Below, in pieces: positions 2,283 through 18,945 of a DNA stretch of 64,000 nucleotides; the first letter of the stretch is position 1, and every line of letters begins with the position of its first letter. Source of the stretch: Pseudanabaena sp. M085S1SP2A07QC (GTDB lineage Bacteria; Cyanobacteriota; Cyanobacteriia; Pseudanabaenales; Pseudanabaenaceae); assembly GCA_020404895.1 (NCBI GenBank), contig JADBWK010000035.1:1-64000 (forward strand), written 5' to 3'. The notes under the pieces were generated by a model. It did not search any database. It was not told where the DNA came from and saw nothing but the letters and a program-made list of their open reading frames with translations. The position numbers and the translations under genes were made by a program.

Positions 2283-2370
2283 TAATACTGAAAATTGATA
2301 TTAGTAGTAGCTTGCTAAATCATCATATTGTCTCGCTAGTAATTTCAATAATTTATTTTAGAAAGATTAA

Positions 2371-2583
2371 TCAAAGTTGATTGGGATCAATGCCTTGCGA
2401 TCGCAAAATTGCCTCTAAACGCTCAATCCTCTGTATAGCCTGTTCTTTGATCAGACGCTCTTGTTCCTTAGCCAAGCGTTCCTGTTCTTCTGGTAACGGC
2501 ACAATCTCACCATTAGCCATGAAATAGCGCAGTTGATTTTTATGGATACCTAGATAAAGAACCATAACCATACTCCACGACAA
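2371..2583 (-). pseudogene. C-terminal remnant of a Uma2 family endonuclease
   Basis: The 70-residue frame resembles only the last part of Uma2 proteins: a LGIHKNQLRYFMANGEIVPLP segment that matches the final beta strands, then a charged helix with EQERLAKEQERLIKEQ and the ending LRSQGIDPNQL, a common Uma2 tail in cyanobacteria. The PD-(D/E)XK catalytic core present in the full-length relative at 43894-44466 is absent. It is therefore best read as a truncated relic. Whether the fragment is translated is unknown. Confidence 0.6.
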
Positions 2584-2640
2584 TATTCGTTTTAGTATAG
2601 CCTAGGCAGACTAAGCTACAAATTTTAGAGATGAGAGCGT

Positions 2641-3342
2641 ATGTTAGAGATTAAGAACCTTAGCGTTAACTATGGTGGGATTCAAGCACTGCAAGATGTG
2701 AGCTTGACCGTGAATGAGGGCGAAGTCGTTACCTTAATCGGTGCTAATGGTGCGGGTAAAACAACAACCTTACGCAGTATTTCGGGACTGGTATCGCCGC
2801 GATCGGGAGAAATTATTTATAATGGCAAAAATATTACGAGTTTAAGACCAGATCAAATTGTCCAAGTTGGTATTGCCCATAGCCCAGAAGGACGGAGAGT
2901 GTTAGCCAGACAGACTGTTTTGGATAATCTAGAGCTAGGTGCTTTTGTGCGTAGCGATCGCTGGGGTATTAAAGCTGATATCGAAAAGCAGTTTCAGATT
3001 TTTCCGAGGCTCGGTGAACGTCGCGATCAATTGGCGGGGACATTAAGTGGAGGCGAACAGCAAATGTTAGCTATCACTCGTGCGGTGATGAGTCTCCCTA
3101 GACTTTTATTGCTTGATGAACCAAGTTTAGGACTAGCCCCACAGATTGTCAGAGAAATTTTTAAAACCATTGTGAATCTTAATCAATCTGGGGTAACGAT
3201 TTTATTGGTTGAGCAAAACGCGACTTTAGCTTTGCAGCACGCGAATCGTGGATATGTGATGGAGTCTGGTGTAATTACGATCGCAGGGCAAGCATCGGAT
3301 TTATTAGTTGATGAAAGAGTCCGCCAAGCATATCTAGGATAA
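2641..3342 (+). CDS. livF: Branched-chain/neutral amino acid ABC transporter ATP-binding protein, LivF/NatE type
   Basis: A 233-residue ABC ATPase of LivF length. Walker A is GANGAGKT (residues 34-41), the signature is LSGGEQQ, and Walker B is LLLLDEPSLGLAP. The HSPEGRRVL and VEQNATLAL stretches are characteristic of LivF rather than LivG. In cyanobacteria the orthologue (NatE) energises the N-I neutral amino-acid permease. The membrane, binding-protein and LivG subunits are not beside it in this window, consistent with the scattered nat genes of cyanobacteria. The ATG at 2641 follows a GAGAGCGT stretch that may act as a weak ribosome binding site. A 25-bp-armed palindrome begins at the stop codon. 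Confidence 0.9.
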   Translation: MLEIKNLSVNYGGIQALQDVSLTVNEGEVVTLIGANGAGKTTTLRSISGLVSPRSGEIIYNGKNITSLRPDQIVQVGIAHSPEGRRVLARQTVLDNLELGAFVRSDRWGIKADIEKQFQIFPRLGERRDQLAGTLSGGEQQMLAITRAVMSLPRLLLLDEPSLGLAPQIVREIFKTIVNLNQSGVTILLVEQNATLALQHANRGYVMESGVITIAGQASDLLVDERVRQAYLG

Positions 3343-3394
3343 AACCCAAAAGACGAGTGGCGGTGCTTAGCACCGCCACTCGTCTTTTGGGTTT
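3342..3394. terminator. Perfect 25-bp-armed palindrome at the end of livF
   Basis: Arms 3342-3366 and 3370-3394 are perfectly complementary with a 3-base loop (TTA). The ends read AAACCCAAAAGA / TCTTTTGGGTTT, the same outer sequence as the hairpin inside the 108-bp mobile element of this window, while the inner arm differs. It could act as a terminator for livF. Its length and shared ends suggest it belongs to a repeat family. Confidence 0.75.
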
Positions 3395-3496
3395 CGTTTT
3401 TTAAGCTTTGTGGGAAACTTTTAGTGAATTTGTGTTTGAACCAACACTTTTAGCGCACAATTTTAAGTAGATACCTAGCGCGTCAAATTGTTTTGT

Positions 3497-4585
3497 ATGA
3501 TTGAGACCCTCAATAAGTTGCCTCGTTGGTTTTCTCTGGGCTTAACTTTTCCGTTAATTTTTCTGAACGGTTGGTTATTGCTATTGCTTGGTCGAGAATT
3601 GCAACCACTAGTCAGCATCCTGATCACAGCGACAGTGATTTCATTTTTGCTAGATTATCCGATTCGCTTTTTAACCAAACTAAAGGTAAATCGTGGCATT
3701 GCGGCAGGATTGGTAATTCTCATATTTTTCATGGTGCTAGGAACATTAGCCATTTTTATTGTGCCTTTGATTTTGGCACAGGCTAATGAACTCATCGTCC
3801 GCTTACCGGACTGGATTAAGTCTGGTCAGCAACAACTACAGACCCTTGAGACATGGGCGATCGCACAGCAATTACCATTTGATATTAGTAGTACTTTCAA
3901 TCAGCTAATCGAAAAGCTAACGGGGGTACTGCGATCTCTAACCACTCAACTTTTTAGCATTGTCTTTGGAGCGATCGGCAGTCTGGTAAATATCTTTTTG
4001 ACCTTGATATTTTCGATTTTTCTTGTCATCCGTGGTGAATTCCTTTGGAATGGCTTATTAAGTTGGCTACCTCAGAAATGGAATGATCAGGTTCGCAATT
4101 TACTGCCCCGCAATTTTGAGCGCTTTATTGTCGGACAGGTTACTTTAGCGACAATCCTTGGTATTCTGCAAACTACAGCTATGCTAATCTTAGGGGTTCC
4201 CCTTGCCCAGCTTTTTGGCTTTGGCATAGGGCTTGCGAGTTTAATTCCCCTTGGCGGATCTAGCACTATTATCACCGTTAGCCTATTGATAGCTCTACAG
4301 AATTTCTGGCTAGGGGTCAAGGTTTTACTAGTCGCAGTGGCAATTATTCAAATTGTGGAGAATGTACTGGGTCCGCGTATTGTCGGAGAGTTAACAGGAC
4401 TAAATCCAGTATGGATGTTAATTTCCCTCGATATTGGCTTTAAGCTAAATGGAGTTTTAGGGCTATTGGTTGCTGTGCCGATCGCAGGTTTTATCAAAGG
4501 TACTTTTGACACAATTCGCGGCGTGAATGGTTCCAGTAAAGTTGAGTCGATCGCCGAAGCCCATACCGAAGTGTCTATAAAGTAA
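3497..4585 (+). CDS. AI-2E family transporter (PerM/YdiK-like membrane protein)
   Basis: About 362 residues with a hydrophobic N-terminal pair of helices, a central amphipathic stretch and a C-terminal block of four to five membrane segments, as in the UPF0118/AI-2E exporter family. The conserved GFGIGLASLIPLGGS and ENVLGPRIVGELTGLNP segments are the strongest family markers. The protein sits in the plasma membrane; known relatives export autoinducer-2 or act as ion antiporters, so the substrate here is not defined. A TTG lies three codons upstream at 3488, but the ATG at 3497 (MIETLNKLP) is the likelier start. A palindrome separates it from livF, so co-transcription is doubtful. Confidence 0.85.
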   Translation: MIETLNKLPRWFSLGLTFPLIFLNGWLLLLLGRELQPLVSILITATVISFLLDYPIRFLTKLKVNRGIAAGLVILIFFMVLGTLAIFIVPLILAQANELIVRLPDWIKSGQQQLQTLETWAIAQQLPFDISSTFNQLIEKLTGVLRSLTTQLFSIVFGAIGSLVNIFLTLIFSIFLVIRGEFLWNGLLSWLPQKWNDQVRNLLPRNFERFIVGQVTLATILGILQTTAMLILGVPLAQLFGFGIGLASLIPLGGSSTIITVSLLIALQNFWLGVKVLLVAVAIIQIVENVLGPRIVGELTGLNPVWMLISLDIGFKLNGVLGLLVAVPIAGFIKGTFDTIRGVNGSSKVESIAEAHTEVSIK

Positions 4586-4674
4586 AAAGTAAGGGTGTTA
4601 AACGCAATATGGAGTGCATCTTTAAGTTTTTGTAACGTATGCCCCAATCAATAGGAACTCCTGTTAATCTAGGC

Positions 4675-4720
4675 AAAAGAAACATGAGTAGCAATCAAAG
4701 CGCCGCTCATGTTTCTCTTT
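4675..4720. terminator. Hairpin downstream of the AI-2E family gene
   Basis: AAAAGAAACATGAG pairs with CTCATGTTTCTCTTT around a loop of about 17 bases. The stem is followed by T-rich sequence. It is a plausible rho-independent terminator for the upstream gene. Confidence 0.5.
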
Positions 4721-4746
4721 TACAGAACTACTGATGATTTGTGCAT

Positions 4747-5067
4747 ATGAAGCGTTTTCGGGATGAATGGATTGATGAATGGTGTCAGGAAAATGGTTGG
4801 ACTGACCTATTTGTTGAACGTTGCTGCAATTATTGGGCATTTCCACCAAGCTCTGTGATGCCATTACCGATACCTGAAAAGACTTTGCGGGCAATTAAAA
4901 ATGCTAAAGGGATGAGTGATGATGAAAAATCTTGGACATTTGCCGCGATCGCTATTTCCTGCCTAGCATCAATATTTAGCTTTATTTTAAAAAATCCTCT
5001 CCCAATCACCTGTGCTTTTGGCTGTGTCGCCTTTATTGTCGGGCAACTAGAAATCGAAGAATTTTAA
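4747..5067 (+). CDS. Hypothetical protein with two C-terminal membrane segments
   Basis: About 106 residues. The N-terminal half is soluble and rich in Trp, Cys and acidic residues (DEWIDEWCQENGWTDLF, then CCNYWAFPP). The C-terminal half holds two hydrophobic stretches (SWTFAAIAISCLASIFSFIL and ITCAFGCVAFIVGQL) joined by a short turn containing NPLP. I do not recognise a named domain. It could be a small inner-membrane protein. A GTG two codons upstream (4741) is an alternative start. It is followed by a strong bidirectional terminator shared with opcA. Confidence 0.6.
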   Translation: MKRFRDEWIDEWCQENGWTDLFVERCCNYWAFPPSSVMPLPIPEKTLRAIKNAKGMSDDEKSWTFAAIAISCLASIFSFILKNPLPITCAFGCVAFIVGQLEIEEF

Positions 5068-5113
5068 AAAGTGGCTATTCTCATTATGAAACCAATTTTT
5101 ATAAAGAGAATAG

Positions 5114-5154
5114 CTATAAAAAAAAGGCTCGCACTGGCGAGCCTTTTTTTATAG
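5114..5154. terminator. Bidirectional terminator between a hypothetical gene and opcA
   Basis: The stem AAAGGCTCGC / GCGAGCCTTT has a 4-base loop, flanked by an A-run on the left and a T-run on the right, so it can terminate transcription from both sides. The opcA stop codon lies inside its right edge. Confidence 0.85.
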
Positions 5155-6270
5155 TGTTAGTATTTTCGATACGAGCGCAAGACTTTCTTCATAGAGAGCT
5201 TCACGTCCCCAGCGCTGCAATTGTTGCCCAAGAAGCGTATCAGCACTTTGATCTGACAAAGGTGATACTTGATGAACACGATAGTTTTGAGCTCCGCCAC
5301 CAGCTTCCATTCGCATACAGCCCGTAGACTCTGAGCAGAATACATTACAAGCATCAGTATTTTGATTAGAGGCTGTCAAGCGTAAACCGATCAGATCTCC
5401 AACTACCTCACCAACATCACCAATGGGAATCGCTGCTAATTCAGCCTTAATTTTGATATGGTTACGACCCTCAAAAATAATATGCTGGATATCGTAATCA
5501 CCGCCTTCAGTAATGCGTTCGATTGGTTCCCATTCCAGACGACTAGCGATCCAGCCCAGAAACATTAGAGCTTGGGTACTGTTGCCACGCTCATAATCGA
5601 TAGTGATTCCATCAATTTCCCAAACAGCCGAACGGCGATCGGGTTGGTCAAAAGCTTGAGCTGTAAGTTCTTGCCAAGGTGCAAGGCGTTGCCAATTCAA
5701 GTCCGCAATTTGCTTACTTGCTTGAATCATCCCTTGAACTTTGAGTAAATCTGACTCAGAATTGGCAAATGTAGCTGAGTCCATAATTAAGCGATCGCTT
5801 AAGTTAACCAGCTTCTCAAACATACGTGTATTAGGTGCGGGGCTGTCTTTCCACCACAAAAATACAGGTAAATCGGGGATCAGTAATTCTGGCAAAATAC
5901 TATGAACGCGATCAAATGCTTGTTTTGCGCCAGTTAGGGTGATGTATTCACCGCAAACCAAAGAGCTACGACTTTTTTGAATTGGGCAATAGGCTGCGAC
6001 CCGTGCAGATATGCCTTGATCTTCTTCATTAAGAGTTACCAAATCGACTACGCGACAAGGACTCTGAGAAACGATCGCATCAACGGAAGCCATCCGCGAT
6101 ACTACATCCATATTTTCTGGTTCATACACCAAAAGATTAAAAGTTGTGGCGCGAGCAGCCGAATTTTCACCATAAGACTGCCAGATTTTGCTTAGCTCCG
6201 CTTCGACTTGAGATACCGAGACATCTTTGGGAGCTTGCAAAGATACAACGGAAGTTGCTTGGGTATTCAT
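5149..6270 (-). CDS. opcA: Glucose-6-phosphate dehydrogenase assembly protein OpcA
   Basis: The 373-residue product matches OpcA in length and content, including the VSLQAPKDVSVSQVEAELSK start, the PDLPVFLWWKDSPAP segment and a Cys-containing C-terminal region (NVFCSESTGCMRMEAGGG). In cyanobacteria OpcA is the redox-responsive effector that activates Zwf so that glucose 6-phosphate enters the oxidative pentose phosphate pathway in the dark. It lies directly downstream of zwf on the same strand, 121 bases away, the classic cyanobacterial order. The start is ATG at 6270. It ends in a bidirectional terminator. Confidence 0.95.
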   Translation of the reverse strand: MNTQATSVVSLQAPKDVSVSQVEAELSKIWQSYGENSAARATTFNLLVYEPENMDVVSRMASVDAIVSQSPCRVVDLVTLNEEDQGISARVAAYCPIQKSRSSLVCGEYITLTGAKQAFDRVHSILPELLIPDLPVFLWWKDSPAPNTRMFEKLVNLSDRLIMDSATFANSESDLLKVQGMIQASKQIADLNWQRLAPWQELTAQAFDQPDRRSAVWEIDGITIDYERGNSTQALMFLGWIASRLEWEPIERITEGGDYDIQHIIFEGRNHIKIKAELAAIPIGDVGEVVGDLIGLRLTASNQNTDACNVFCSESTGCMRMEAGGGAQNYRVHQVSPLSDQSADTLLGQQLQRWGREALYEESLALVSKILTL

Positions 6271-6280
6271 GGGAATTATA

Positions 6281-6390
6281 AATTACGAGTAGGGAATTGG
6301 GAATTACGAATTACGAGTAGGGAATTGGGAATTACGAATTATAAATTTAAGGAAATTAGATCGTAATTCGTAATTCCTAATTCCTAATTG
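6281..6390. repeat. Short tandem and inverted repeats in the zwf-opcA gap
   Basis: AATTACGAGTAGGGAATTGG occurs at 6281 and again at 6309, a 28-base period. The downstream stretch ending near 6389 (TAATTCGTAATTCCTAATTC) is the inverted counterpart, so the gap can fold back on itself. Similar GGGAATTGGGAATTACGAATTACG repeats are familiar in cyanobacterial spacers. It might affect zwf-opcA read-through. Confidence 0.7.
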
Positions 6391-6391
6391 A

Positions 6392-7921
6392 TCAAAGCCG
6401 TCGCCACTGTCGTCCATCACGTTCGATCAGTTGTTCGGCTTCAGATGGGCCCCAAGTTCCTGCTTCGTATTGAGGCACGACGCTGGGATCATTAGGCATT
6501 TCCCATGCAGTAAGCGCGGGTGTCACAACTTTCCATGCGGCTTCCACTTCGTCACCGCGTGTAAATAGTGTCTGATCACCCAACATACAGTCTAGCAATA
6601 GACGATCATAAGCGTCGGAGCCTTCGATACCGAAGGTTTTACCATAGCCGAAGTCCATTTCTACCGAACGCGATCGCAGGTCGGCTCCTGGCATCTTTGC
6701 CTCAAATTTCAGAGCTACGCCCTCATTAGGCTGGATTCTGAGTGTCAGCACGTTAGGTGAAACCTGCTTTGCGGCTGACTGAAATAGCAAATAAGGCACA
6801 TCACGAAACTGAATCGCAATTTCGCTGACTTTTTTTGGCATCCGTTTGCCAGTTCGCAAATAGAAAGGAACACCTTGCCAACGCCAGTTGTTTACTTCAA
6901 ATTTCATGGCTACATAGGTTGGCACTAAGGAATCAGGATTAACATTCGGTTCAAGGCGATAGCCTTCCACCTGTTTACCCTTCATCCAACCCTGTCCATA
7001 TTGCGCTCGTACACATGATCGCTCTAGGCGGCGTGTATTGGCGAGTCGGGTTGCTTGGATCACCTTAACTTTTTCATTTCGCAGAGAGTCTGCATCCATG
7101 GCGTTAGGTGGTTCCATCGCTGTCAAGCAGAAAAGTTGCATCAAATGATTTTGCAGCATATCTCTGAGCGCCCCAGAGTTTTCATAATAGCCAGCTCGAT
7201 CCTCAACACCAACGGTTTCAGCAACCGTAATTTGGATGTGGTCGATAAACTGGCGATTCCATAGTGGTTCAAAAATCGTATTGGCAAATCGCAGCACCAA
7301 AAGATTCTGAACGGTTTCTTTTCCTAAATAATGATCAATCCGATAAATCTGTTTTTCGTCACAAGCTTTTTGAACTACTCGATTGAGATCTTGACATGAT
7401 GACAAATCTCGACCAAAGGGTTTCTCAATCACAAGCCGAGTCTTGTCAGCATTCTTGATCATCCCAGCTTGCCCCAACTTCTCGATCGCATCGGTAAAGT
7501 AATTGGGTGAAACGGCTAAATAAAAGACTCGATTACCGCGAGTACCCCTTTCTTTGTCAATTTGACTCAGAAACTCATCAAGCTTTTTATAATCCTCAAG
7601 ATTGCTCATATCAAGGGATTGATAATATAAGCCTTCAGCAAAATCTTGCCAAATTGCTTCAGCGCCAATACCTACAGAGAACTTTTCCACGCCCTCGCGC
7701 ATTTGTTCACGAAAGTAGTCATGACTCCAAGGTCTTCGAGCCACACCCACGATTGTGAGTTCGGGCGGTAGCCGACGCTGCTGTTTGAGATAATAGATCG
7801 CTGGAACTAGCTTGCGAATAGTCAAATCACCCGACGCACCAAAGATCACAAGGATCAGTGGTTCAGGTGTTCTTTCTTGTTGTAAACCAACCCGTAAGGG
7901 ATTTTCGAGTATTTGTACCAC
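6392..7921 (-). CDS. zwf: Glucose-6-phosphate 1-dehydrogenase
   Basis: 509 residues, normal for cyanobacterial G6PDH. It oxidises glucose 6-phosphate to 6-phosphogluconolactone with NADP+. The nucleotide-binding fingerprint GASGDLT is at residues 28-34, EKPFGRD at 166-172, and the substrate-binding and catalytic motif RIDHYLGKE at 194-202. The initiator is GTG at 7921; there is no upstream in-frame ATG close by and no strong Shine-Dalgarno. It forms the zwf-opcA pair with the following gene. The family and activity are secure; regulation by OpcA and thioredoxin is known for the family, not shown here. Confidence 0.97.
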
Positions 7922-8313
7922 AGGCTCGTTTGTTGAACGCTAGGTAGATTCTAGCCAATATATTCATTTTTCCAACAATATCGTCTGTTTTCCTTTAGGA
8001 TTACTTGATTTAATTTTGGGCTTTACAACATTGCAGGTCTAAATAAACCCCAAAAAGAGTAAGCACAGTTCAAATCCTCGTATCGTGTGTGATAATGATT
8101 ATCATTCTTGGTAAATGGTCGGATAAATATGATTTCTGGCACAAGAGTATGGGTAGTTGTAATAGAAATATTATTGCGAGTATTAGTCAGATGTTTTTAT
8201 TGAAATCCTAATTTATTTGGGCTAAAAGTTCTAAAAATGTTTAAGCTATTTCTACTTTAATGATATTTATTACTATTAAGGTTTACGTAATAGGTTAAGT
8301 GAGGAGTTAATCC
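7922..8313. promoter_or_regulatory. Divergent intergenic region between zwf and the porin gene
   Basis: This 392-base AT-rich gap carries the divergent promoters of zwf (left) and the porin (right). It holds one clear operator, the Fur box at 8091-8109, and a GTGAGGAG ribosome binding site just before the porin ATG at 8314. I see no open reading frame or structured RNA in it. Confidence 0.6.
8091..8109. promoter_or_regulatory. Fur box upstream of the SLH porin gene
   Basis: The 19 bases GATAATGATTATCATTCTT match the 19-base Fur consensus at 16 positions and contain a perfect 13-base palindrome (AATGAT-T-ATCATT, 8094-8106). It lies about 205 bases before the porin start codon and about 170 bases from the zwf start. 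This predicts iron-dependent repression, most likely of the porin. Confidence 0.85.
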
Positions 8314-9921
8314 ATGTCGAAAATTTGGTTTGAACAAGTACAGAAATCTCTAGTTGGCGTGATCGCCTGTTCTGCGATCGGAGTATTGCCCAGCAACATG
8401 TTTAGAGCCTCGGCTCAGTCGTTATCACCAACTAAAGATGTCCTAACGCAAAATGTCACATCCGTCTCCCAACTCAGTGATGTACTTCCGACTGATTGGG
8501 CTTTTACAGCCTTGCAGTCCCTCGTTGAGCGCTATGGATGTATCGCAGGTTACCCTGATAGAACCTTTCGCGGTAAGCAAGCCACCAGTCGCTATGAATT
8601 TGCCGCAGGGTTAAATGCTTGTCTCGACAAAATCAATGAGATTATCTCCGCAGGGCTAGCCGATAAGGTTAGCAAAGAGGATCTCGCCACATTACAGAAA
8701 TTGCAAGAAGAATTTGCGACTGAACTTGCAACTTTGCGAGGTAGAGTTGATGCCCTTGATGCAAAAACTGCCAAACTCGAAGCGCAGCAATTTTCGACGA
8801 CAACTAAGCTCACAGGTCAAGTAATTGCGGCTGTCTCTGCGGGAAGTTCAGGTACTGATTTTCTGCTGGCCTCAACTGGAGTAGCGACAACCAATGCGGG
8901 CAAAGTCAATGCAACTGTGATCAGCCGCGTGCGACTGAATTTTAATACGAGTTTTACGGGCGAAGATTTATTGCTAACTCGCGTCGAACTTGGCAATGGT
9001 GGCACAGGGCTTAATAATCAGCTAGATGCCCCTGCTAGCTTATTAGGTTTTACAGGATTTGGGAACAGTTCTAAATTTGATTACAGTGGCGCTGGTACGA
9101 TTGCAACATTAAATCGCTTGCGTTACGATTTCCCGATTGGCAAAGATATCCGCGCTTCGATTGGGACAAATATGTCATTGAATGATCATCTTGATGCGAA
9201 TAGCTTCGCTAATGATGAGTCTGCCGATTTTTCCAGTGGCATGTTTATTAATAATCCCCTGATTTTGCCCGTAAATGATGGTGCTGGAGCTGCGATCGCA
9301 TGGAACTTTGGTGGTAGTGCTTTTACTCTGAGAGCAGGTTATGTAGCCCAAAATGCTAGTAGTCCCACTTCTGACGGCACGATCAATCGAGGTTTGTTTG
9401 GTGATCCGTACCAAGGTACGGTTGAGCTAGAATTTGCGCCGAAAAATGCGAATGATGAGAGTCCGTTTGCAATCCGCTTGCAATATACTCGCGCTTCAGT
9501 AAATAATCTTGACTACAACACGGGCGGGGTAAACCTTGAGTGGGCTTTTAATAAATCTGTGGCAATTTTTGGACGCTATGGATTTGGCAACATCAGTAAT
9601 CGCAGCAATGCTATTTCCGCAGCACTCCCCAGCTACACAGTTTCAGGTAATACCTCTCTTAGCCCTCAAACTTGGTCTGCGGGTTTTGCTTTTCCTGATT
9701 TATTTAAGGAAGGTGCGATGGCTGCGATCGCGGTTGGGCAACCTTTCATTGAGAACCAAGTGGGTAATGCTACTCAAACCAATGTGGAATTGTTCTATCG
9801 CTTCCCCATCTCTGACAATATCAGTATCACTCCTGATGTGCAGTTCATCTTCAATCCCAATAACAACAGTGGCAATAGCACCATCACTGTCGCTACATTG
9901 AGAACTGTATTCTCGTTCTAA
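8314..9921 (+). CDS. SLH-domain OprB-type outer-membrane porin, probable iron-uptake porin
   Basis: 535 residues. The N-terminus has a signal-like hydrophobic segment ending near FRASAQS. Residues about 50-110 form one SLH domain (VLPTDWAFTALQSLVERYGCIAGYPD ... SRYEFAAGLNACL read in parts), which binds the peptidoglycan-linked polymer. A short coiled coil follows (KLQEEFATELATLRGRVDALDAK in parts), then a beta-rich OprB-like barrel ending in a terminal Phe (TVFSF), the usual barrel-assembly signal. This is the Som/OprB architecture of cyanobacterial major porins. The Fur box upstream supports the iron-uptake subgroup. Start ATG 8314 has a good ribosome binding site (GAGGAG). Confidence 0.9.
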   Translation: MSKIWFEQVQKSLVGVIACSAIGVLPSNMFRASAQSLSPTKDVLTQNVTSVSQLSDVLPTDWAFTALQSLVERYGCIAGYPDRTFRGKQATSRYEFAAGLNACLDKINEIISAGLADKVSKEDLATLQKLQEEFATELATLRGRVDALDAKTAKLEAQQFSTTTKLTGQVIAAVSAGSSGTDFLLASTGVATTNAGKVNATVISRVRLNFNTSFTGEDLLLTRVELGNGGTGLNNQLDAPASLLGFTGFGNSSKFDYSGAGTIATLNRLRYDFPIGKDIRASIGTNMSLNDHLDANSFANDESADFSSGMFINNPLILPVNDGAGAAIAWNFGGSAFTLRAGYVAQNASSPTSDGTINRGLFGDPYQGTVELEFAPKNANDESPFAIRLQYTRASVNNLDYNTGGVNLEWAFNKSVAIFGRYGFGNISNRSNAISAALPSYTVSGNTSLSPQTWSAGFAFPDLFKEGAMAAIAVGQPFIENQVGNATQTNVELFYRFPISDNISITPDVQFIFNPNNNSGNSTITVATLRTVFSF

Positions 9922-9940
9922 TTTACTGATGGGTTTAAAA

Positions 9941-9982
9941 CCTCACCCCTAGCCCCTCTTCTTCGCAAAGGAGAGGGGAATC
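9941..9982. repeat. Dispersed cyanobacterial CCTCACCCCTAGCCCCTC repeat with hairpin
   Basis: The sequence CCTCACCCCTAGCCCCTC, followed by a TTCGC loop and AAGGAGAGGGG, is the short interspersed hairpin repeat common between cyanobacterial genes. It sits just after the porin and may serve as its terminator, though it lacks a long T-run. Confidence 0.6.
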
Positions 9983-10086
9983 AGAAAATTCAGTTACCTA
10001 ATTTCAACATCATCTCGACTAATTGGGATATGCCAATACAGCAAGGGTTTGAGTATTCAGGCAATTTGTTTTGCTTGGCTAAGTTA

Positions 10087-10734
10087 TCAACTTAGTAAAT
10101 CAGGGAAATGCTCATTTAAAGTGGCTTTCAACTCTTTTTCCAGTTCCTGAAAAGCAGACAAGTTTCTTAGAGGCTCAAAATCATCGATCATCTCAGCGAC
10201 TCTAACGCAATAGTTAGAAGGAATATTAACTTTTTTGCCACGTCTACGTGGAAAACTTGCATCAATTAGAAGCTTTTCTAGCCTTTCTTTCGGATCAGAT
10301 ATTTGTTCGATTTCAGAAAATTTTGGCAAATCCAATTCCTGCTTACCATTTGGATTTCCTACGACTTTCCGAATTGCATCTTCATTAAAAAGAAGCCAAG
10401 ATTCAATCATCTTAATAGGAATCACACAGACTATTGGAGGCAATGATTTTTTAACAAGCTTTTCTGCCTTGCGAATTTCTTTTGTACGAGTTTCGATGGG
10501 AGTTTCATCAGATTCAGCATCTCGGTGGATAAACAAAATGTCACATGGAAATAAATCTAGAGCGATCGCGATTTTATCTTGTAGCTTCTTAGGAGGGTTT
10601 CGTAAATTCCCTAAAATCGGCAGTTGTGGTTCAGGCGCATTAATTCCTAATTTTATTAGGAGCCATTTCAGAATTGGGATTAAAGCGTCATCTGTACGTC
10701 CATCTGCAATTAATGTGAATCTAAAATCATTCAT
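10087..10734 (-). CDS. DUF4276-like / TOPRIM-like protein paired with an AAA ATPase
   Basis: 215 residues. The N-terminus FTLIADGRTDDALI (residues 6-19) resembles the first TOPRIM strand-loop, usually (V/I)EGxTD, but with Asp11 where Glu is usual. A second acidic motif, DILFIHRDAESD (65-76), matches the DxD strand of TOPRIM-type nucleases. VIPIKMIESWLLFNE is a stretch often seen in DUF4276 proteins. The start codon overlaps the end of the upstream ATPase gene by four bases, so the two are translated together. By analogy with OLD, Gabija and PARIS, it is probably the nuclease partner of an ATP-driven sensor. That function is inference. Confidence 0.6.
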   Translation of the reverse strand: MNDFRFTLIADGRTDDALIPILKWLLIKLGINAPEPQLPILGNLRNPPKKLQDKIAIALDLFPCDILFIHRDAESDETPIETRTKEIRKAEKLVKKSLPPIVCVIPIKMIESWLLFNEDAIRKVVGNPNGKQELDLPKFSEIEQISDPKERLEKLLIDASFPRRRGKKVNIPSNYCVRVAEMIDDFEPLRNLSAFQELEKELKATLNEHFPDLLS

Positions 10735-12290
10735 GACTTTAGGATATCCTCCATAAGTCCAGTGATATATGGTTGTATGTCGGGTCTATCTACTACTCTA
10801 GATTTTTTCTTGGATTTAGATTGAGAATTTCCATTACCATAGATATCTATCTCTTCATTAGAAGCTACTGGATTGAGATAACCAAGCAGTCGTCCTTTTG
10901 CAACAATATTCACCGCATCATCTTTAGTCCGCCAAGTACCATTTAAGCAACTAAACCTAACCCCTCTATATCGTTTGTGATTATTAACTATCTCTTTTAA
11001 CTCTGCAATAACAAGACTATCGTCTGGAACTTGCAATACAACCGCAGGAGAATGTGTATTAATTATGACTTGTCGAAGGGGATTATCAACGTCAACTTGT
11101 TCATTGACATCTGTAGCAATACTCTGTAAAAGCTTTAAAATTGCAGGTATACGTTCTGGATGAATGCCATTTTCGGGTTCTTCTAAACATAACAAACCTT
11201 GAGTTTCGTGATCGAGATTTAGTACAGCTAATGCTAGAAATCTCAAAGTTCCATCACTTAAAGATCTAGCAGGATGAGATGTTCCGTCACGTCCTTGAAC
11301 CATTAAAGTTAGAAGTTGACGTTTTTCATCGCGATCAATACTGACACTTCTGACATCATGAATTAACTCAGAAAGGGTATTTGCAACTTGAGTATAAACT
11401 TGCTGTCCACTATCATCTGAAGATTCTCGATCATTTAAGTTTTCTATATCACTCAACATTGCCAGACGATATAAAGTAGAAGGTAAATGAGAACCATCCA
11501 TACCTAATACTGTGTCAGTCATAAAATCATCTGGCTTCCTCAGTGAAGAAGGCTCTAGCTGTAAAATACGCCATGACTGCATCTCTCTTTTTGCTAATAA
11601 TGCTGTCGGACTTTCAACTGCATTAGATTCTGAAAGAACAGTTCTTGGTAATGTTCTTGCTAAGAATCTTCTTGTTTTACCAACGGAACCACCTTCTTTT
11701 CGTCCGCTACTTCCACTATCCTGATGAACTTTAATTTTTCGATCTTCATCATTTTTTTCACCTTCTGTAGAAATAAATTCTCCACGTCGTCGAGTCACAA
11801 ATAATGAGTCAATCCATTGTTTTGAGTAATCAAAAATAAGATTGTTGGGGAGTTCTGATTTATTAAGTCGAGTGAGTTCTTCTTTAATTATTTCTAAAGT
11901 TCCTAAAGGTTTGAGGGGGTTTTGTTCTGGTCGATAAGCAATAATCAAAATGTAACGCAAAATAGTGCTGCTAGCTTTTGCTTCTTGCCCTAAATCATCT
12001 GTGCCATGACTAGATATAATCATTTCTGCTTCAAAGCTCATTTCTGTATCATATTCATTTCCAACACGATGAAAAAGGCTCCGTACATCAGAAGACTTTC
12101 CTCCTTCATCTCTAATTGATCGAGCAGCTTCTATCAAAGAGTTATTGCTTAAAGCACTCAAAAACTGAATAGCATCAAAGAGATTTGACTTTCCTACGCC
12201 ATTAGCACCAGCAATACAAGTAAATGGAGAAAATCGGATATCTACATCTATTAGATTTTTAAATCCAGAGACCTTCAGACGTGTAAGCAT
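10731..12290 (-). CDS. AAA family ATPase (OLD/RecF-like), defence-type
   Basis: About 519 residues from the ATG at 12290; a TTG seven codons upstream (12311) is less likely. The N-terminus LTRLKVSGFKNLIDVDIRF is the standard SMC/RecF-like strand, followed by Walker A GANGVGKS at residues 28-35. A LSDGTLRFLAL signature and Walker B GLLCLEEPENGIHP follow, then the NTHSPAVV switch motif. The middle is variable and charged, as in AAA_15/AAA_21 ATPases. Such ATPases act as activators or sensors in phage defence with a TOPRIM or HNH nuclease encoded next door. Here the partner is the overlapping DUF4276-like gene. Target and trigger are unknown. Confidence 0.75.
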   Translation of the reverse strand: MLTRLKVSGFKNLIDVDIRFSPFTCIAGANGVGKSNLFDAIQFLSALSNNSLIEAARSIRDEGGKSSDVRSLFHRVGNEYDTEMSFEAEMIISSHGTDDLGQEAKASSTILRYILIIAYRPEQNPLKPLGTLEIIKEELTRLNKSELPNNLIFDYSKQWIDSLFVTRRRGEFISTEGEKNDEDRKIKVHQDSGSSGRKEGGSVGKTRRFLARTLPRTVLSESNAVESPTALLAKREMQSWRILQLEPSSLRKPDDFMTDTVLGMDGSHLPSTLYRLAMLSDIENLNDRESSDDSGQQVYTQVANTLSELIHDVRSVSIDRDEKRQLLTLMVQGRDGTSHPARSLSDGTLRFLALAVLNLDHETQGLLCLEEPENGIHPERIPAILKLLQSIATDVNEQVDVDNPLRQVIINTHSPAVVLQVPDDSLVIAELKEIVNNHKRYRGVRFSCLNGTWRTKDDAVNIVAKGRLLGYLNPVASNEEIDIYGNGNSQSKSKKKSRVVDRPDIQPYITGLMEDILKS

Positions 12291-12486
12291 AATATTTTGG
12301 GGTAACAACAAAGAAAGAAATTCGCTTTTGATAGATTCTTGTACTTATCTCAGACTTAGCCAAGAGAGACTATGTGTGTTGTTTTCTTTAAATTACATTA
12401 CACGAATACCTTAGTCTATAATTAACTTGAAGCTTAAAATTTCATTTCCTAAAATTTTTATATTTCCAACCTAATAACTCGATCGC

Positions 12487-14538
12487 ATGGTCTCTTCGCC
12501 GCCCGCCACCCCAACCACCAACACCACTTATACCCCTATCACATTTCCTCTTGCGGCTGTGGTCGGTCAAGAAGCGATTAAAACCGCTTTACTGCTAGCA
12601 GCGATCGATCCTGCGATCGGTGGCATCGCCCTCGCAGGTAGACGCGGCACAGCCAAATCCGTCCTTGCCCGTGGGATTCATGCCCTTCTGCCTCCCATCG
12701 AAGTTGCCGTTGAATCTCTTAGTAACTGTGATCCAACTAAGCCCGACATATGGGACGATGCGCTAGTCAAGGCTATGAAGGACAAAGACAAGAGCGAAAT
12801 TGTCACCAAAGTTATTCCTGCACCATTCATCCAAATTCCGTTGGGAATTACCGAAGATCGGCTGATTGGTTCTGTGGATGTGAGTCGTTCGGTGCGCGAA
12901 GGTCAGACCGTATTTCAACCAGGGATTTTAGCAGAAGCACATCGTGGCGTTCTCTATATTGACGAAATTAATTTACTCGATCCCCAGATTTCTAATTTGT
13001 TGCTTTCCGTACTCTCTACAGGCTATAACCAAGTCGAACGCGAAGGCATCAGCTACCAACATCCTTGTCAACCTTTGCTGATTGCCACCTATAACCCTGA
13101 AGAAGGCATTTTAGGCGAACATCTGATGGATCGGATTGCGATAAATCTTTCGGCGGATGGAGTTCTCTCCCTTGATCAGCGAGTAGAAGCAGTGGATATG
13201 GTATTGGGCTATGCTAATTCTCCTGAAGCCTTTTTGAGTAGCTATGACTCGGATATTGACGATCTACGGACACAGATTATTTTGGCGCGAGAATGGCTGA
13301 AAGACATCACAATTTCGAGAGCACAAATTCAGTATCTTGTAGCTGAAGCGGTGCGGGGTGGAGTCCAAGGACATCGGGCAGAGCTGTTTGCGTTGCGAGT
13401 GGCGAAGGCGGCGGCGGCGCTAGAAAGTCGCACACAGGTAAATGCTGATGATTTACGGCAGGCGGTGGAGTTGGTAATCGTGCCGCGATCGCCTCTTTCT
13501 CCTGATCAACAACAACCTGAACAGCAGCAACAGCAGCAAGCACCACCTCCGCCACCTCCCAATCAGGACGAAGGAGAACAGGAACAGGAGGAAGATCAAG
13601 AGGATCAGGAACAAGAGCAAGAGCAGGATGAATCCCCTGAAATTCCTGAAGAATTTGTCTTCGATCCTGAAGGAGTAATTCTCGATCCAGAAGTTCTCTT
13701 CTTTGCTCAGTCAATGCAGAAGCAAGGACGATCGGGGACGCGCAATGTGATTTATTCCCAAGAGCGTGGGCGTTACATAAAGCCAATTTTGCCTCAAGGT
13801 AAGAGCGATCGCATTGCGGTCGATGCAACACTCCGAGCCTCGGCTCCCTATCAAAAAGCGAGAAGATTGCGCCACCCCCATCGCAAAGTGATCGTTGAGG
13901 ATGTGGATATTAGAGCGAAGAAGCTAGCACGTAAGGCTGGAGCGCTAACAATTTTCTTGGTGGATGCATCTGGCTCAATGGCACTCAATCGAATGCAATC
14001 GGCTAAGGGCGCGGCTTTACGGATGTTAACCGATAGCTATCAAAATCGTGATCAGATTTCTCTAATTCCCTTTCGTGGTGAGAAAGCCGATGTATTATTA
14101 CCGCCCACTCGTTCCATCGAAGCAGCGCGTCGTCGTTTGGATACCATGCCTTGCGGAGGTGGTTCGCCGCTAGCACATGGCTTGACTCAAGCTGTAAGAG
14201 TAGCGATGAACGCGAGACAGTCAGGTGATGTTGGCTCAGTGACGATTGTGGCGATTACTGATGGTCGTGGCAATGTGCCTCTAGCGAGATCGATGGGTGA
14301 ACCGATTGATCCTGAAAACAAGCCTGATATTAAAGCGGAATTGATCGATATTTGTCGCAAAGTTCGCGCTTTAAATTTAGGGCTATTGGTAATTGATACA
14401 GAAAATAAATTCGTGTCTACAGGCTTTGCAAAGGAACTTGCCGCCGCAGGTGGGGGGAAGTATTACCATTTACCCAAAGCGACCGATCAGGCGATCGCAA
14501 ATGTCGCGCTCAGTGCGATCGCTGATCTACGACAATAA
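12487..14538 (+). CDS. chlD: Magnesium chelatase ATPase subunit D
   Basis: 683 residues. ChlD with ChlI and ChlH inserts Mg2+ into protoporphyrin IX, the first committed step of chlorophyll synthesis. The N-terminal AAA+ domain (about 15-340) has a degenerate P-loop (GRRGTAKS) and LYIDEINLL. An acidic/Gln/Pro linker (about 340-385, with runs of Q, P and E) joins it to the C-terminal von Willebrand A domain, whose MIDAS motif is DASGSM, with a later TDGRGN. Length and order match cyanobacterial ChlD. The start is ATG 12487. The gene is monocistronic and ends in a bidirectional terminator whose arm includes the stop codon. Confidence 0.96.
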
Positions 14539-14575
14539 AAAAATCGCCCGCTTAGCGGGCGATTTTTTTATTGTC
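14531..14575. terminator. Bidirectional terminator containing both convergent stop codons
   Basis: Arms 14531-14552 and 14554-14575 are fully complementary over 22 bases, with the core ATCGCCCGC / GCGGGCGAT flanked by A and T runs. The chlD stop and the stop of the convergent SpoIID gene both lie inside the arms. Confidence 0.9.
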
Positions 14576-16178
14576 GCGGAGTGTAATGCTCAGGACGCAA
14601 TTTCTGTAACCGCGTATTCGTGTAATAAAAGTTGAGAATGCGATCGTAAGACCAGCCCATACGAGCTAAATTATAAGAACCTGTCTGGCTCATGCCCACG
14701 CCATGCCCCAATCCGCCGCCAATAAAAGCATATCCAGTCAACACTTTATCTTGATAAATCGGCTCTAGTTTAAAGAAAGTGCTATCAGGTGGATCGAAGG
14801 CATCGATGATTTCATCTTTTTTGACGAGGATTTTGCCAGTATCAGTGGTTACTTCTAATTCCAAAACTCGTCCTGAGGTAGCTCTTTTTGAGACTTGCAG
14901 TTGTTTAATCGCACTAAAATTAGTTGTACTATCTCCAGAGAATCGCAAAAACTTTTTCAAAGAAGTTTGTAATTCTTCTAATGAACCGATTCTTCGCCAA
15001 CGCAGGTTTTTCCATCCCACCTCATTAAAACCCTGCTGACGTTCTAAAAATGCTTTGAGATTTTTATCATCAGCAATATTTGCGGATCGCTGATTTTCAG
15101 GACGATTGGCAAGATCTAGTACCGATTGTAAATAGGGGCGTGGTGTTCCATCCCAAATATCGTTATAGTTTGCGGTAATTCCACCCGTCGTTGACGAATA
15201 GAGCGCATCGATGACCTTATCGTTATAGGTAAGAACCAAGCCTCTAGTATCAGCGATCGCGCGATCGGCAACTTCAGTAGTATCTTCTAAACCTCGATAT
15301 ACTTGGCATTGTGTATCAGCGCAAAGTTCGTATTCATCGACCTTAAAGCGGTGCAAACTTGCCAGCACATAAGTACGCGCCAGAATAGCTTGGGCTTGTA
15401 CAGATGCATAAGGCGCATTGTAACCAATTTCATGGGGAACTACACCGCGCACATAAGTTTCTAAAGGAACGTTATTGACTAAGGTAAAACTTTGATGAGC
15501 ATTAGGTTGTAATCTCAAACTACCTGCATAAGCTCGATTGCTAATCTCAGCCTTATTCTCTCTTTGATAGCTCACTTCGACAATACCATTACTGCTACTG
15601 ACATCAAGGCGATCGCGGTTATACCGAAAATCTCCCACTGTCCATGAAGCGATCGCTTTTTGGGGCAGTATCCGACGATCAAGCTGGACTGTAAGATTGC
15701 CTTGCGATCGCAAAGTATAAAACAACAAATAACGCAATAACATCGAGTCATACATATCGCGCTTTGCCCAGACTTGCCAACGTCTCGGTTGAGCAATTTC
15801 AGTCTGGATACCCTTCTCATTCCAATGGAAAGCACTTGCCGCCGCATTTTCAAAACTACGATGATTGCTAAGAACTAACTTCTCTTCAAGAATTGGTTGC
15901 GTTAATTTTTGTGGGGCAATGTCAATAACTAGGCGATCGCTGCTTAAGGTTTGTGTGCTTTTCCCGTCAGCAGATGGGAAAGAAAGGGTAAGTTTGCCAC
16001 CTGAGGGAGCCTTTAGTATAAGCCGATCCTGCGGTCTTTCCCCAAAACGTTGGACAATACCAATTTTAAGAATAGGAGCTGATTCTGTTTGAGCTTGCGC
16101 AAGTTCGCCTGCCGTAAGTGTAAACGAACAAATAGTTACAATTACGGTTTGGCGAATGATAACGAAAGTTTTTAACAT
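14568..16178 (-). CDS. SpoIID/LytB domain-containing exported protein
   Basis: 536 residues with an N-terminal signal peptide (hydrophobic VTICSFTLTAGELAQA, probable cleavage after AQA). The SpoIID domain begins around residue 235 with NVPLETYVRGVVPHEIG and includes LARTYVLASLHRF and GLVLTYNDKVIDALYSSTTGG. The C-terminal GHGVGMSQTGSYNLARMG is the hallmark LytB/SpoIID motif. SpoIID proteins are glycan-strand lytic transglycosylases, and cyanobacterial homologues presumably remodel periplasmic peptidoglycan. The start is ATG 16178. It shares a terminator with chlD. Domain assignment is secure; the cellular role is inferred. Confidence 0.88.
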   Translation of the reverse strand: MLKTFVIIRQTVIVTICSFTLTAGELAQAQTESAPILKIGIVQRFGERPQDRLILKAPSGGKLTLSFPSADGKSTQTLSSDRLVIDIAPQKLTQPILEEKLVLSNHRSFENAAASAFHWNEKGIQTEIAQPRRWQVWAKRDMYDSMLLRYLLFYTLRSQGNLTVQLDRRILPQKAIASWTVGDFRYNRDRLDVSSSNGIVEVSYQRENKAEISNRAYAGSLRLQPNAHQSFTLVNNVPLETYVRGVVPHEIGYNAPYASVQAQAILARTYVLASLHRFKVDEYELCADTQCQVYRGLEDTTEVADRAIADTRGLVLTYNDKVIDALYSSTTGGITANYNDIWDGTPRPYLQSVLDLANRPENQRSANIADDKNLKAFLERQQGFNEVGWKNLRWRRIGSLEELQTSLKKFLRFSGDSTTNFSAIKQLQVSKRATSGRVLELEVTTDTGKILVKKDEIIDAFDPPDSTFFKLEPIYQDKVLTGYAFIGGGLGHGVGMSQTGSYNLARMGWSYDRILNFYYTNTRLQKLRPEHYTPRQ

Positions 16179-16339
16179 GTCAAGCTCAAGATGTCAGAAG
16201 ATGTACTGTATTTTTGCAATATATTAGCAATACTATGGACAAATTTGGTCATAAATGGAGCCTTAAAAGCAAAACTTCTAGAAATTTAGTCCATGTCTGC
16301 CCAAGATCCAATAAATTGGTTGGTCTTGAGTGAGTTCTA

Positions 16340-17557
16340 CTATTGACAAAAATCTTTCCAATCTTGATGTACTCTTTGGCTATATGCCTTGGCATATTCC
16401 ATTACTTCAGTTTTCCATTTAGATTTACCAGCAAAATCGATCAATTGATCGATGGTCGCAGAGCCTTGTCTAGCACTACTACGCAAATGAGACCAAGCTA
16501 CAACTTCCCCTAATGACAGCATTAATTGCTCAGACTTCTGCAATTTATCATCCCATTTCTCGATCTTTAAATGATCAGTTGGACTTTGAGTAGATTGAAG
16601 TCCTCTCAACACAAATGAATCTTTACCAATAGTCACAGAGTGTAGAAAAGCGATAGGAATTGCTTGTAATCGCTTTTGAATTGACACAATGCGATCGCTT
16701 TCACTTTTCCATGTTGGTTGAGCCCAAACGTTACGCACTGCCAGCGAAGAAGGTAGGGCTCTTTTTAGATCGAGGAGATAGTTACCATCGGGTGAGCCTT
16801 TGCCTTCCACTAATAAAACATAACGCTCTATCCCTAAACTTCCCTTGCCAGCAATGCGCTGTGCTACGTCCAATAATTTAAAAAACTTGGGATTTGTCTG
16901 CTGTGCTGCAAAATCCTCTATGCAACTCTCCACTTTTTGTCTTTGTTGGTCAGTTATTGGCTTCGCCTTTTTGAAATCAATTTTTAACGATCTCCTTTGC
17001 TTTTCTTGATCTAAAACAGTTCTTTCCTCTAATAACTCTCTGCGCTTGACCTGATTTTTGCGTGCCAGCAAATCTTCGATCACTGGAGGAGCCATATCTT
17101 CGCCCATCCAATAAGCTTTCCCCTCAGATATAGTCTTAATGTAAGAATTGAGGAATTTTTGGCAGAGCTTTTCTGCAACTTGCAACCCGACTGAATAAGT
17201 CTCCGTAGATACAAAGATGCTGGTCAACAAACGGGCGATTTCCCAAGTACAAGGAGCAAGCATAGCTTCATCAAAATCGTTGATATCAAAATAAACGTGA
17301 CGATTAGCTGCTTTATAATTCCCAAAATTCTCTACATGAAGATCGCCACAAATCCAGACTAGAGGTGCTTTTTTAAACCATGACTTAATCGGCAAATCTT
17401 CATAAAATAGATGACAGGTGGATCGAAAAAAGATAAAGGGGTTTTCTTTTTCCTCACGCATATACTGATATTTTGCCTTCAGCAAATCGGGATCTCGCGG
17501 TTGACTGAGATTAAATTGATAAATGCGATCGCGAATATTTCGATTTGCCATAAACAT
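16340..17557 (-). CDS. DUF2252 family protein
   Basis: 405 residues. The typical DUF2252 signature is visible as WICGDLHVENFGNYK followed by VYFDINDFDEAMLAPCTWEIARL, which recalls the GDxHxxN...DFD catalytic and metal-binding loops of the protein-kinase-like/aminoglycoside-phosphotransferase fold. SARQGSATIDQLIDFAGKSKW lies near the C-terminus. The resemblance suggests a phosphotransfer enzyme, but substrates of this family are unknown to me. ATG 17557 and ATG 17551 are both possible starts. It lies 38 bases downstream of the next minus-strand gene, across a palindrome. Confidence 0.8.
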   Translation of the reverse strand: MFMANRNIRDRIYQFNLSQPRDPDLLKAKYQYMREEKENPFIFFRSTCHLFYEDLPIKSWFKKAPLVWICGDLHVENFGNYKAANRHVYFDINDFDEAMLAPCTWEIARLLTSIFVSTETYSVGLQVAEKLCQKFLNSYIKTISEGKAYWMGEDMAPPVIEDLLARKNQVKRRELLEERTVLDQEKQRRSLKIDFKKAKPITDQQRQKVESCIEDFAAQQTNPKFFKLLDVAQRIAGKGSLGIERYVLLVEGKGSPDGNYLLDLKRALPSSLAVRNVWAQPTWKSESDRIVSIQKRLQAIPIAFLHSVTIGKDSFVLRGLQSTQSPTDHLKIEKWDDKLQKSEQLMLSLGEVVAWSHLRSSARQGSATIDQLIDFAGKSKWKTEVMEYAKAYSQRVHQDWKDFCQ

Positions 17558-17563
17558 TCTGAA

Positions 17564-17600
17564 ATTAGTATAAACAGCGCTTAGCGCTGTTTATACTAAT
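17564..17600. terminator. 18-bp-armed palindrome
   Basis: ATTAGTATAAACAGCGCT (17564-17581) pairs exactly with 17583-17600 around one base. The stop codon of the upstream minus-strand gene lies within the right arm. It could terminate that gene and insulate the DUF2252 gene, whose ATG is only 7 bases away. Confidence 0.75.
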
Positions 17601-18945
17601 TTACTTTACTAAGTCCTGTATACACATTCTCGTTTACTAATCCCAACCAAGGGTCACTAGCTGGAGTGAGAAACAATTGATCGTAAACTCGGCGATTCAG
17701 GGAGTTTAGAGCCAGTGAATTGCCATTGAGATTTTCATTGCCGAGAAATTCACCATTAGCAAACCAACTGTGAATCTGTGCATGAAATACATATTCGTTA
17801 CGGACAGTATCTTGAGCGATCGCTTTTTCAAAGCTACTGACCACCGTTGGCATTGATGCGCTCGGCGATAACTTACGTTCCATGAGCTTCAGACTCCCTT
17901 GATCGAGATATACTCGATTTTGATAAAGCCTTGCTAATCTTGCCCAATTTGCATCACTCAGCTTGGCAAAAGGTGAAGGGGGAGGAACTTCGGAGATAGG
18001 CGCACTAGGCGTGCGAGTTAGCGTAGGCATCTCGACTGCCATTTTACCAAAAGTCAACCGACTTGCAGTCCTCGCATCAGAACTAAAAGGGTTACCCGTA
18101 AACACATCTTGATTATTAAGTAATGGTTGCAATGGCAAGCTTAGGAGAGTGAGATCTGTTCGCCAATTTTTTTCAAGCTTCGTAAGGCGATCTCGATGAT
18201 ATTTAACCAAAACTTCGCGGCGTAACTTTACATCGTTAGTATTGTTAAGTAGTTTCTCAGCGCCCTCAGCATCTTTCAGATTTTCTAGAAATACTTGAGG
18301 ACTGTACAAACCTGGAATTGCATCAATTGGGCGACCATCACTATCAAGTACATAGTGAATGCTATTACCTGTCAGGGTTTGCTCTAGCTTACGACCATCC
18401 CCAAAATCAATCGTCACCTTAGGTACTGGACGCTCAGGCTGCCAATGTAAAATAAAGCGATCGCGCAGCAATTGTGAGACTCCCGCATTAGGATAAAGCG
18501 CTGTGCGGAAAAATCGACTATTAGCACAACTCAACTCATCATTAAGGTTGCCAAGCAATCGCAATGACAAAATCGGTTTTCCAGATTCCTTTGATGCAGT
18601 CTTGGCAGCTTCTAAATCTTTGTACCAATACAAGCGTGAGGCATCGCAGTCTTTTTGCTGACAAATTGCATCTAAAGTTGCTCGTAATTGCGCATTATTA
18701 GGTAAATCTTTTTGATAAGCATTCCAAAATGCATCTACACCAGCATTTTTAAATTCTCGTAATTTGGCGATCGCCTGCTGCGATGTTACTTGATCTTTGG
18801 AAGCTGCTTGTTGAACGAGGCTATTCAAACTCGGTTGCTCTGAAGCGATAACTGCCTGTGGTGAAGAGATGGCAGAGATAGCGATCGCGCCCAAACTCAA
18901 TAAAGCGAAACATGAATTAGCCAGCTTTTTTTTCACAAGCATCAT
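17596..18945 (-). CDS. Exported thioredoxin-fold-like protein without a CxxC motif
   Basis: 449 residues with a signal peptide (LANSCFALLSLGAIAISAIS, cleavage probably near VIASEQ). A helical segment with QQAIAKLREF follows. Residues about 100-215 read like a thioredoxin-like domain of the type LYWYKDLEAAKTASKESGKP-ILSLRLLG, with SRFFRTALY and LLRDRFILHWQPE, which is the pattern of thioredoxin_7/DUF255 proteins where a redox CxxC is lost. The C-terminus (VRNEYVFHAQIHSWFANGE) is conserved-looking but unassigned. It likely acts in the periplasm. I do not recognise a named function. The start ATG is at 18945 or one codon on. Confidence 0.65.
   Translation of the reverse strand: MMLVKKKLANSCFALLSLGAIAISAISSPQAVIASEQPSLNSLVQQAASKDQVTSQQAIAKLREFKNAGVDAFWNAYQKDLPNNAQLRATLDAICQQKDCDASRLYWYKDLEAAKTASKESGKPILSLRLLGNLNDELSCANSRFFRTALYPNAGVSQLLRDRFILHWQPERPVPKVTIDFGDGRKLEQTLTGNSIHYVLDSDGRPIDAIPGLYSPQVFLENLKDAEGAEKLLNNTNDVKLRREVLVKYHRDRLTKLEKNWRTDLTLLSLPLQPLLNNQDVFTGNPFSSDARTASRLTFGKMAVEMPTLTRTPSAPISEVPPPSPFAKLSDANWARLARLYQNRVYLDQGSLKLMERKLSPSASMPTVVSSFEKAIAQDTVRNEYVFHAQIHSWFANGEFLGNENLNGNSLALNSLNRRVYDQLFLTPASDPWLGLVNENVYTGLSKVN

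Follow-up and report, generated by a model that had tools for sequence, protein, structure and literature searches.

The window, i.e. the whole analysed stretch of 64,000 nucleotides from Pseudanabaena sp. M085S1SP2A07QC (genome G000), possesses a two-gene cassette on its minus strand (Table 1). The gene of an ABC/SMC-head ATPase, HEC-01A, overlaps that of a small DUF4276-like protein, HEC-01B, by four bases (10731-10734). Both open reading frames, which the original prediction had already described as an ATPase and a small protein with this overlap, were confirmed, and so were the motifs IADGRTDD and FIHRDAES in the small protein. HEC-01A contains the motifs GANGVGKSN, LSDGT and CLEEPENGIHP, which we take to be Walker A, a signature-like motif and Walker B, respectively, besides NTHSP. 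Promoter-like sites occur at chance level (7 observed, 8.5 expected) and no terminator-like sites were found (1.7 expected).

Table 1. Features of the cassette and its surroundings in the window
Feature	Position	Strand	Description
OprB porin	8314-9921	+	Flanks the site on one side, in the window and in relative G008
Relic of rloB 3' end	9993-10091	-	99 bases, 33 codons, RloB aa 180-212, 76% identical
HEC-01B	10087-10734	-	DUF4276-like, predicted TOPRIM-type effector, 215 aa; PADLOC match
Putatively exchanged segment	10090-12416	-	Upstream region, HEC-01A and HEC-01B
HEC-01A	10731-12290	-	ABC/SMC-head ATPase, 519 aa, ATG at 12290; Pfam and PADLOC matches
Mg-chelatase-like AAA/VWA gene	12487-14538	+	Other edge of the site

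In Pfam, HEC-01A matches ATPase families only, AAA_21 with 101 bits and also AAA_15. It scores 319 bits against the PADLOC model of HEC-01A (PDLC04184; residues 1-426 on model positions 1-405 of 464), and HEC-01B scores 92 bits against PDLC04210 (residues 5-208 on positions 5-211 of 217). Membership in HEC-01 asks for an ATPase matching the HEC-01A model and an adjoining partner matching the HEC-01B model; the cassette has both, and the pair belongs to the candidate system HEC-01 catalogued in PADLOC. The proposed layout, an ATPase with a DUF4276-like partner reminiscent of PARIS or split OLD systems, is borne out, but the suggested distinct branch is not an unrecorded one, since PADLOC already lists the pair. 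HEC-01 is thus known as a candidate type, and new here is the genomic context of the exchange site. The HEC-01B of the window is a divergent member, as a relative (L061) reaches 263 bits on the same PDLC04210 model. The DUF4276 assignment holds in part: with 22.1 bits the small protein stays under the curated cut-off of PF14103 (30.2 bits), and so does the relative L067 (13.7 bits), which is closer to it than the two divergent relatives of the same arrangement that pass (L061 with 59.7 and L072 with 35.8 bits). As originally stated for DUF4435, no DUF4435 match was found in Pfam at E<=1, nor any AriB, RloB or AbiLii match in Pfam and PADLOC at the same threshold. According to PMC12988326, HEC stands for 'Hma-embedded candidates', several of which, HEC-06 being named, had antiviral activity. 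The literature search returned no functional study of HEC-01 among the matches listed and nothing on DUF4276; judged by title, none of the matches listed on RloA/RloB concerned this pair, none on MAD3/MAD4 concerned defence and none on Pseudanabaena and defence concerned this site.

The alignments A1 and A2 comprise 20 rows, with the two HEC-01B loci containing stops and the four fragment loci excluded. In HEC-01B, G12, D15, H70, D72, R83, E111 and W113 are invariant in all 20 rows. Position 11 is Asp in 15 rows and Glu in five; the Asp in place of Glu noted in the original prediction is present in the window, but does not mark a new branch because those five members possess Glu there. The model predicted from the 20-row alignment (pLDDT 90.3, pTM 0.88) aligns with AriB of the PARIS complex (8ux9_A; Z 7.2, 172 residues, rmsd 5.3 A) and with the TOPRIM regions of two OLD structures, 6njv (Z 5.9, 168 residues, rmsd 5.2) and 6nk8 (Z 5.8, 169 residues, rmsd 5.1). 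These are the three longest alignments among 50 rows of the structural comparison and cover most of the protein, as the predicted TOPRIM match would have it; the match is nevertheless not decisive, because unrelated proteins reach equal or higher Z. The remaining 47 rows (94-136 residues, Z up to 8.4) are other kinds of protein, with Piwi, receiver domains and lumazine synthase among them. Foldseek detected no match to the model in the PDB and the viral library at E<=0.001, and a sequence search of the PDB found no relative, the single match being a complex I subunit at E 0.17. The model makes a TOPRIM-type fold of HEC-01B likely, though not proven.

In profile comparison, HEC-01B aligns with the DUF4435 profile at motif I (P 0.019), no better than a match to the wrong part of RloB (P 0.012). 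The wider DUF4276 profile (A5) also aligns with DUF4435 at motif I (P 1.8e-4, probability 48%); since the position that A5 gives to motif II of canonical DUF4276 is doubtful, only motif I of this match is trustworthy. Control comparisons gave P 0.16 for HEC-01B against the ATPase profile and P 0.0075 for RloB against DUF4435. By sequence, the TOPRIM assignment of HEC-01B is very weakly supported. A kinship of HEC-01B with RloB, expected from the common acidic-G-x-[ST]-acidic pattern, finds no support: besides the wrong-part alignment, the RloB profiles yield a scrap of motif I (P 0.049), none of it significant, and the wide DUF4276 profile gives no useful alignment with RloB.

The model of HEC-01A (pLDDT 81.8) is ordered to about residue 475 and followed by a low-confidence tail from residue 476. 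All 50 rows shown of its comparison with solved structures are SMC/Rad50/RecN/PtuA-type heads, with Z from 22 to 17. No TOPRIM domain was found in the ATPase chain in Pfam, in the predicted model or in the structural rows shown. With the loop 281-300 and the tail set aside, residues 121-220 are the most variable stretch, with a mean pair identity of 0.43-0.54 per 20 residues (17 rows). Model confidence is low at 121-130 and 191-210 within this stretch and in the loop 281-300. Residues 121-220 are perhaps a candidate sensing region, to judge from their variability.

HEC-01B relatives occur in 24 of 388 genomes of the class and in six of 26 Pseudanabaena genomes, including that of the window. 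Among the 25 fetched loci, 19 possess intact adjacent pairs, two have a HEC-01B interrupted by a stop next to an intact ATPase gene, and four hold fragments. Linkage in other genomes, on which the original prediction was to stand or fall, is hence present: together with the window, 20 of 26 places hold an intact adjacent pair. DUF4276 genes in general are found in 71 of 242 genomes of the class, and an ATPase lies directly upstream in 26 of the best 30 loci, many of these being near-copies from Pseudanabaena. The four misses comprise L175 and L188, with an ATPase upstream at -119 and +254, L176 with a distant fragment only, and L183, where the wrong open reading frame was picked and no ATPase found. 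Named records with a relative of the small protein are three Pseudanabaena and one uncultured cyanobacterium; the pair also occurs in Kovacikia minuta, on a plasmid of 1.2 Mb. Searches of phage records and viral contigs yielded no HEC-01B. The two in-frame stops lie at codon 133 in G009 (L054 9241-9891) and codon 132 in G079 (L060 9859-10497), two distant genomes in which the ATPase remains open; they may reflect a costly effector, or chance. Recoding at these neighbouring codons was set aside, as independent loss is simpler given that the local sequence differs and relatives are intact. A short open reading frame in G165 (L063 74-436) fuses residues 1-38 of the ATPase with residues 67-134 of HEC-01B and seems to be the remnant of an in-frame deletion.

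Several copies of HEC-01 have predicted defence genes as neighbours. G025 (L056 16-14907) carries the pair inside a BREX locus, in the order BrxC, PglX, HEC-01A, HEC-01B, PglZ and BrxL, with a few other open reading frames between HEC-01 and PglX/PglZ. The same BREX locus also holds a PDC-S09 gene, and BrxA lies on the other strand. HEC-01 follows large helicases matching DpdE/ZorD models at a distance of 9 and 33 bp in G008 and G206, and a Rad50-like gene with an LmuB match in G197. PADLOC scans of neighbours covered chosen genes (two sets of 10) and not every neighbour: seven of ten chosen near neighbours of other copies have no PADLOC match at 1e-5, and the other three matched candidate PDC-S03, TIR-type proteins and LmuB/mad3-type ATPases. 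The neighbour L067:7938-9551 likewise has no PADLOC match at 1e-5. The window itself contains a second pair of an ATPase and a small gene with a four-base overlap (40407-42799, plus strand), which scores highest in PADLOC on Septu PtuA (508 bits) and PtuB (314 bits). A 1156-aa Type IIG restriction enzyme-methyltransferase is encoded on the minus strand some 8 kb away from the cassette (20552-24022; REase_MTase_IIG in PADLOC with 309 bits, Type_ISP_C in Pfam with 99 bits, mad2 weakly with 38 bits).

The chelatase-like gene at the edge of the cassette is matched in all 26 Pseudanabaena genomes (partial in G016), and its upstream side is readable in 23 of them, the window included; G004, G007 and G016 are excluded from this count because the gene is partial there or close to the end of a contig. 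This slot holds HEC-01 in three genomes (G000, G003, G009), an AbiL pair in four (G008, G011, G012, G019; PADLOC models were run on the pair of G008, whose RloB scores 141 bits in Pfam), an AbiJ_NTD4/DUF7014 (AbiJ-like) gene in two (G001, G014) and none of these cassettes in 14. At other places than the slot, HEC-01 occurs in G008, G024 and G025. The porin edge is present as a porin fragment in G019 and G012. A DUF29 gene stands beside the chelatase-like gene at five loci (L080 2293-2745, L077 2213-2665, L091 7318-7809, L086 7317-7772, L087 2368-2820), assigned by Pfam at L080 and by similarity at the other four; it adjoins AbiL or AbiJ-like genes in G019, G012, G011 and G001 and occurs without such a cassette in G020.

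In the window, the slot contains the relic of rloB. The stop codon of HEC-01B (10087-10089) lies within its first bases, and the junction in G009 is identical in kind. Three of the four AbiL loci (G008, G012, G019) were compared with the window at the junctions. Outside the exchanged segment, window DNA matches these relatives up to about 10090, and inside it no DNA match to them was found; the right edge lies at 12416 in two of them and at 12474 in G008. This rloB end recurs: it comes after HEC-01 in G000 and G009, and after the AbiJ-like gene in G014 and G001. On account of this relic, the simplest reading of the sequences is that AbiL stood at the slot first and was then replaced by HEC-01. 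It looks as though one predicted ATPase/TOPRIM system had replaced another in situ, with a legible scar left behind, so that the junctions and the order of defence turnover become testable.

Fragments of rloB are found elsewhere, too. An rloB end lies beside a porin in G005 (L127 3135-3200), with no defence gene recognised among the open reading frames listed. In G006, rloB ends or fragments lie away from any recognised defence cassette (L128 3757-3864, L129 2562-3017): an end (C235) at a place with neither porin nor chelatase-like gene nor, among the open reading frames listed, a recognised defence gene, and a fragment beyond the chelatase-like gene, on its other side. The relic and the differing cassettes could instead stem from genome fluidity and mobile pieces of rloB, with no replacement of one defence cassette by another at a dedicated site, and the rloB ends elsewhere in G005 and G006, the fragment across the chelatase-like gene in G006, the 14 of 23 genomes devoid of a HEC-01, AbiL or AbiJ-like cassette upstream of that gene, and the HEC-01 of G003, which stands at the slot without an rloB relic, all speak for it. 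Such an explanation is nonetheless improbable, considering that orientation and edges are the same, that in three AbiL-bearing relatives the flanking DNA agrees as far as the junctions, and that the same rloB end stands behind both HEC-01 (G000, G009) and the AbiJ-like gene (G014, G001).

A second exchange is visible within the cassette itself. The window and G009 are 95% identical at the ends of the compared region (238/251 and 421/441), in contrast to 79% in the ATPase core (1030/1310); the transition piece 10541-10859 (280/319 identical) was left out of the comparison of ends against core (Fisher p 1e-25). HEC-01B is 93% identical between the two, the copy in G009 being broken by its stop. 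In 8-row DNA trees, the core groups G009 with G024 at full support and rejects a clade of G000 and G009 (p-AU 2.9e-5), whereas HEC-01B groups G000 with G009 (83/100, not starred) and rejects G009 with G024 (p 0.0042); the latter tree came with a program warning about the long branch of G025. The p-values of both approaches are optimistic, as the borders and groups had been chosen with knowledge of the identity profile. The contrast in identity and the conflicting gene trees indicate that the core of the ATPase was exchanged independently of the effector: HEC-01 alleles have swapped this core and kept most of the effector gene. This fits a sensor under pressure, but also plain recombination among alleles. 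Owing to the stop in HEC-01B, the allele of G009 is probably not working as a pair. At both ends of rloA, the AbiL alleles at the slot (L081, L077, L080, L091) are 87-98% identical to G019, and between these conserved ends their RloA core diverges strongly, down to 45-60% in the lowest windows. Their rloB is about 63-94% identical over most of its length and varies as well, so that the effector does not simply stay there. The natural core exchange between the window and G009 could help to map what HEC-01A recognises.

We are in two minds about, and put forward tentatively, the wider reading that the slot is a defence cassette-exchange site, at which HEC-01, AbiL and AbiJ-like cassettes are swapped through flanking homology with breakpoints at gene ends, and that the resident HEC-01 has had the core of its sensor ATPase swapped alone with the effector kept, the sensor evolving as a plug-in. 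The interest of the cassette lies in this exchange site and in the natural exchange of the ATPase core.

The cassette is real, conserved and probably defensive, and we consider it likely that the window pair, as a HEC-01 cassette, serves against phages much as PARIS or AbiL do. The defence reading is supported by the PADLOC matches, the linkage of the pair, its patchy presence, the BREX and helicase context and the AbiL and AbiJ-like alternates at the slot; it is weakened by the many ordinary neighbours and by the failure to find HEC-01B in the phage and viral records searched. PMC12409363 lists AbiL and MADS among ATPase/Toprim systems and describes for PARIS that AriA keeps AriB inactive and frees it on meeting a phage protein, and that AriB cuts tRNA. 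By analogy with PARIS, HEC-01A would form a complex with the small TOPRIM-like enzyme HEC-01B and control it. HEC-01A may act as the sensor of an infection cue, perhaps via its variable region, upon which HEC-01B would be released to cut nucleic acid (DNA or tRNA) with the help of metal ions, and this cleavage would stop phage growth. The target of HEC-01B may be tRNA, other RNA or DNA.

The fold of HEC-01A, closest to SMC/Rad50/RecN heads, would also suit a housekeeping or DNA-repair module of a RecF/OLD-like ATPase with an accessory nuclease, or else a toxin-antitoxin-like unit. PMC12796447 offers a parallel in archaeal Cran1, a branch of the OLD family reported to have a cell-cycle role and, it seems, none in defence, and several copies of HEC-01 stand among genes without PADLOC match. 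We regard this as unlikely: HEC-01 is present in only six of the 26 Pseudanabaena genomes and degraded in several genomes, and its location once inside a BREX locus and elsewhere where relatives have AbiL is the behaviour of accessory defence. It is quite improbable that HEC-01B lacks nuclease activity, with catalysis lost in its D-G-x-[ST]-D variant and the protein serving the ATPase as a partner in binding or signalling. The modest TOPRIM structural match and the Asp that 15 of the 20 members have at position 11 speak for this reading; against it stand an acidic residue (D/E) at that position in 20 of 20 and the invariant D15, D72 and E111, which suit metal binding.

Between the window pair, here read as a predicted anti-phage cassette, and the catalogued HEC-01 no defining difference was found. 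Among better-known systems, MADS resembles it in that HEC-01A matches the MAD3 model with 131.4 bits, a score far below the cut-off of 420 bits, and differs in that no methylase occurs among the ten open reading frames scanned at 966-18945. OLD and GajA of Gabija share the logic of an ABC ATPase with a TOPRIM, and the OLD TOPRIM regions align to HEC-01B, but in the window the predicted TOPRIM is a separate protein, unlike in the single chain of OLD and in GajA. The cassette furthermore adjoins a porin and the chelatase-like gene instead of a GajB (UvrD-like) helicase. AbiL (RloA/RloB) likewise consists of two genes, an ATPase and a TOPRIM-type protein, and occupies the same slot in G008, G011, G012 and G019; RloB and HEC-01B, however, lack significant profile similarity, and the window effector has no RloB/AbiLii match. 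PARIS differs in its effector, that of the window being DUF4276-like and devoid of a DUF4435 or AriB match. In the comparison with AriA and AriB named in the original prediction, the ATPase scores 97 and 71 bits on AriA models, which seem generic. Like PARIS, the window pair is split into an ATPase and an effector, here predicted to be TOPRIM-like, and it is AriB that provides the longest structural alignment of HEC-01B (172 residues).
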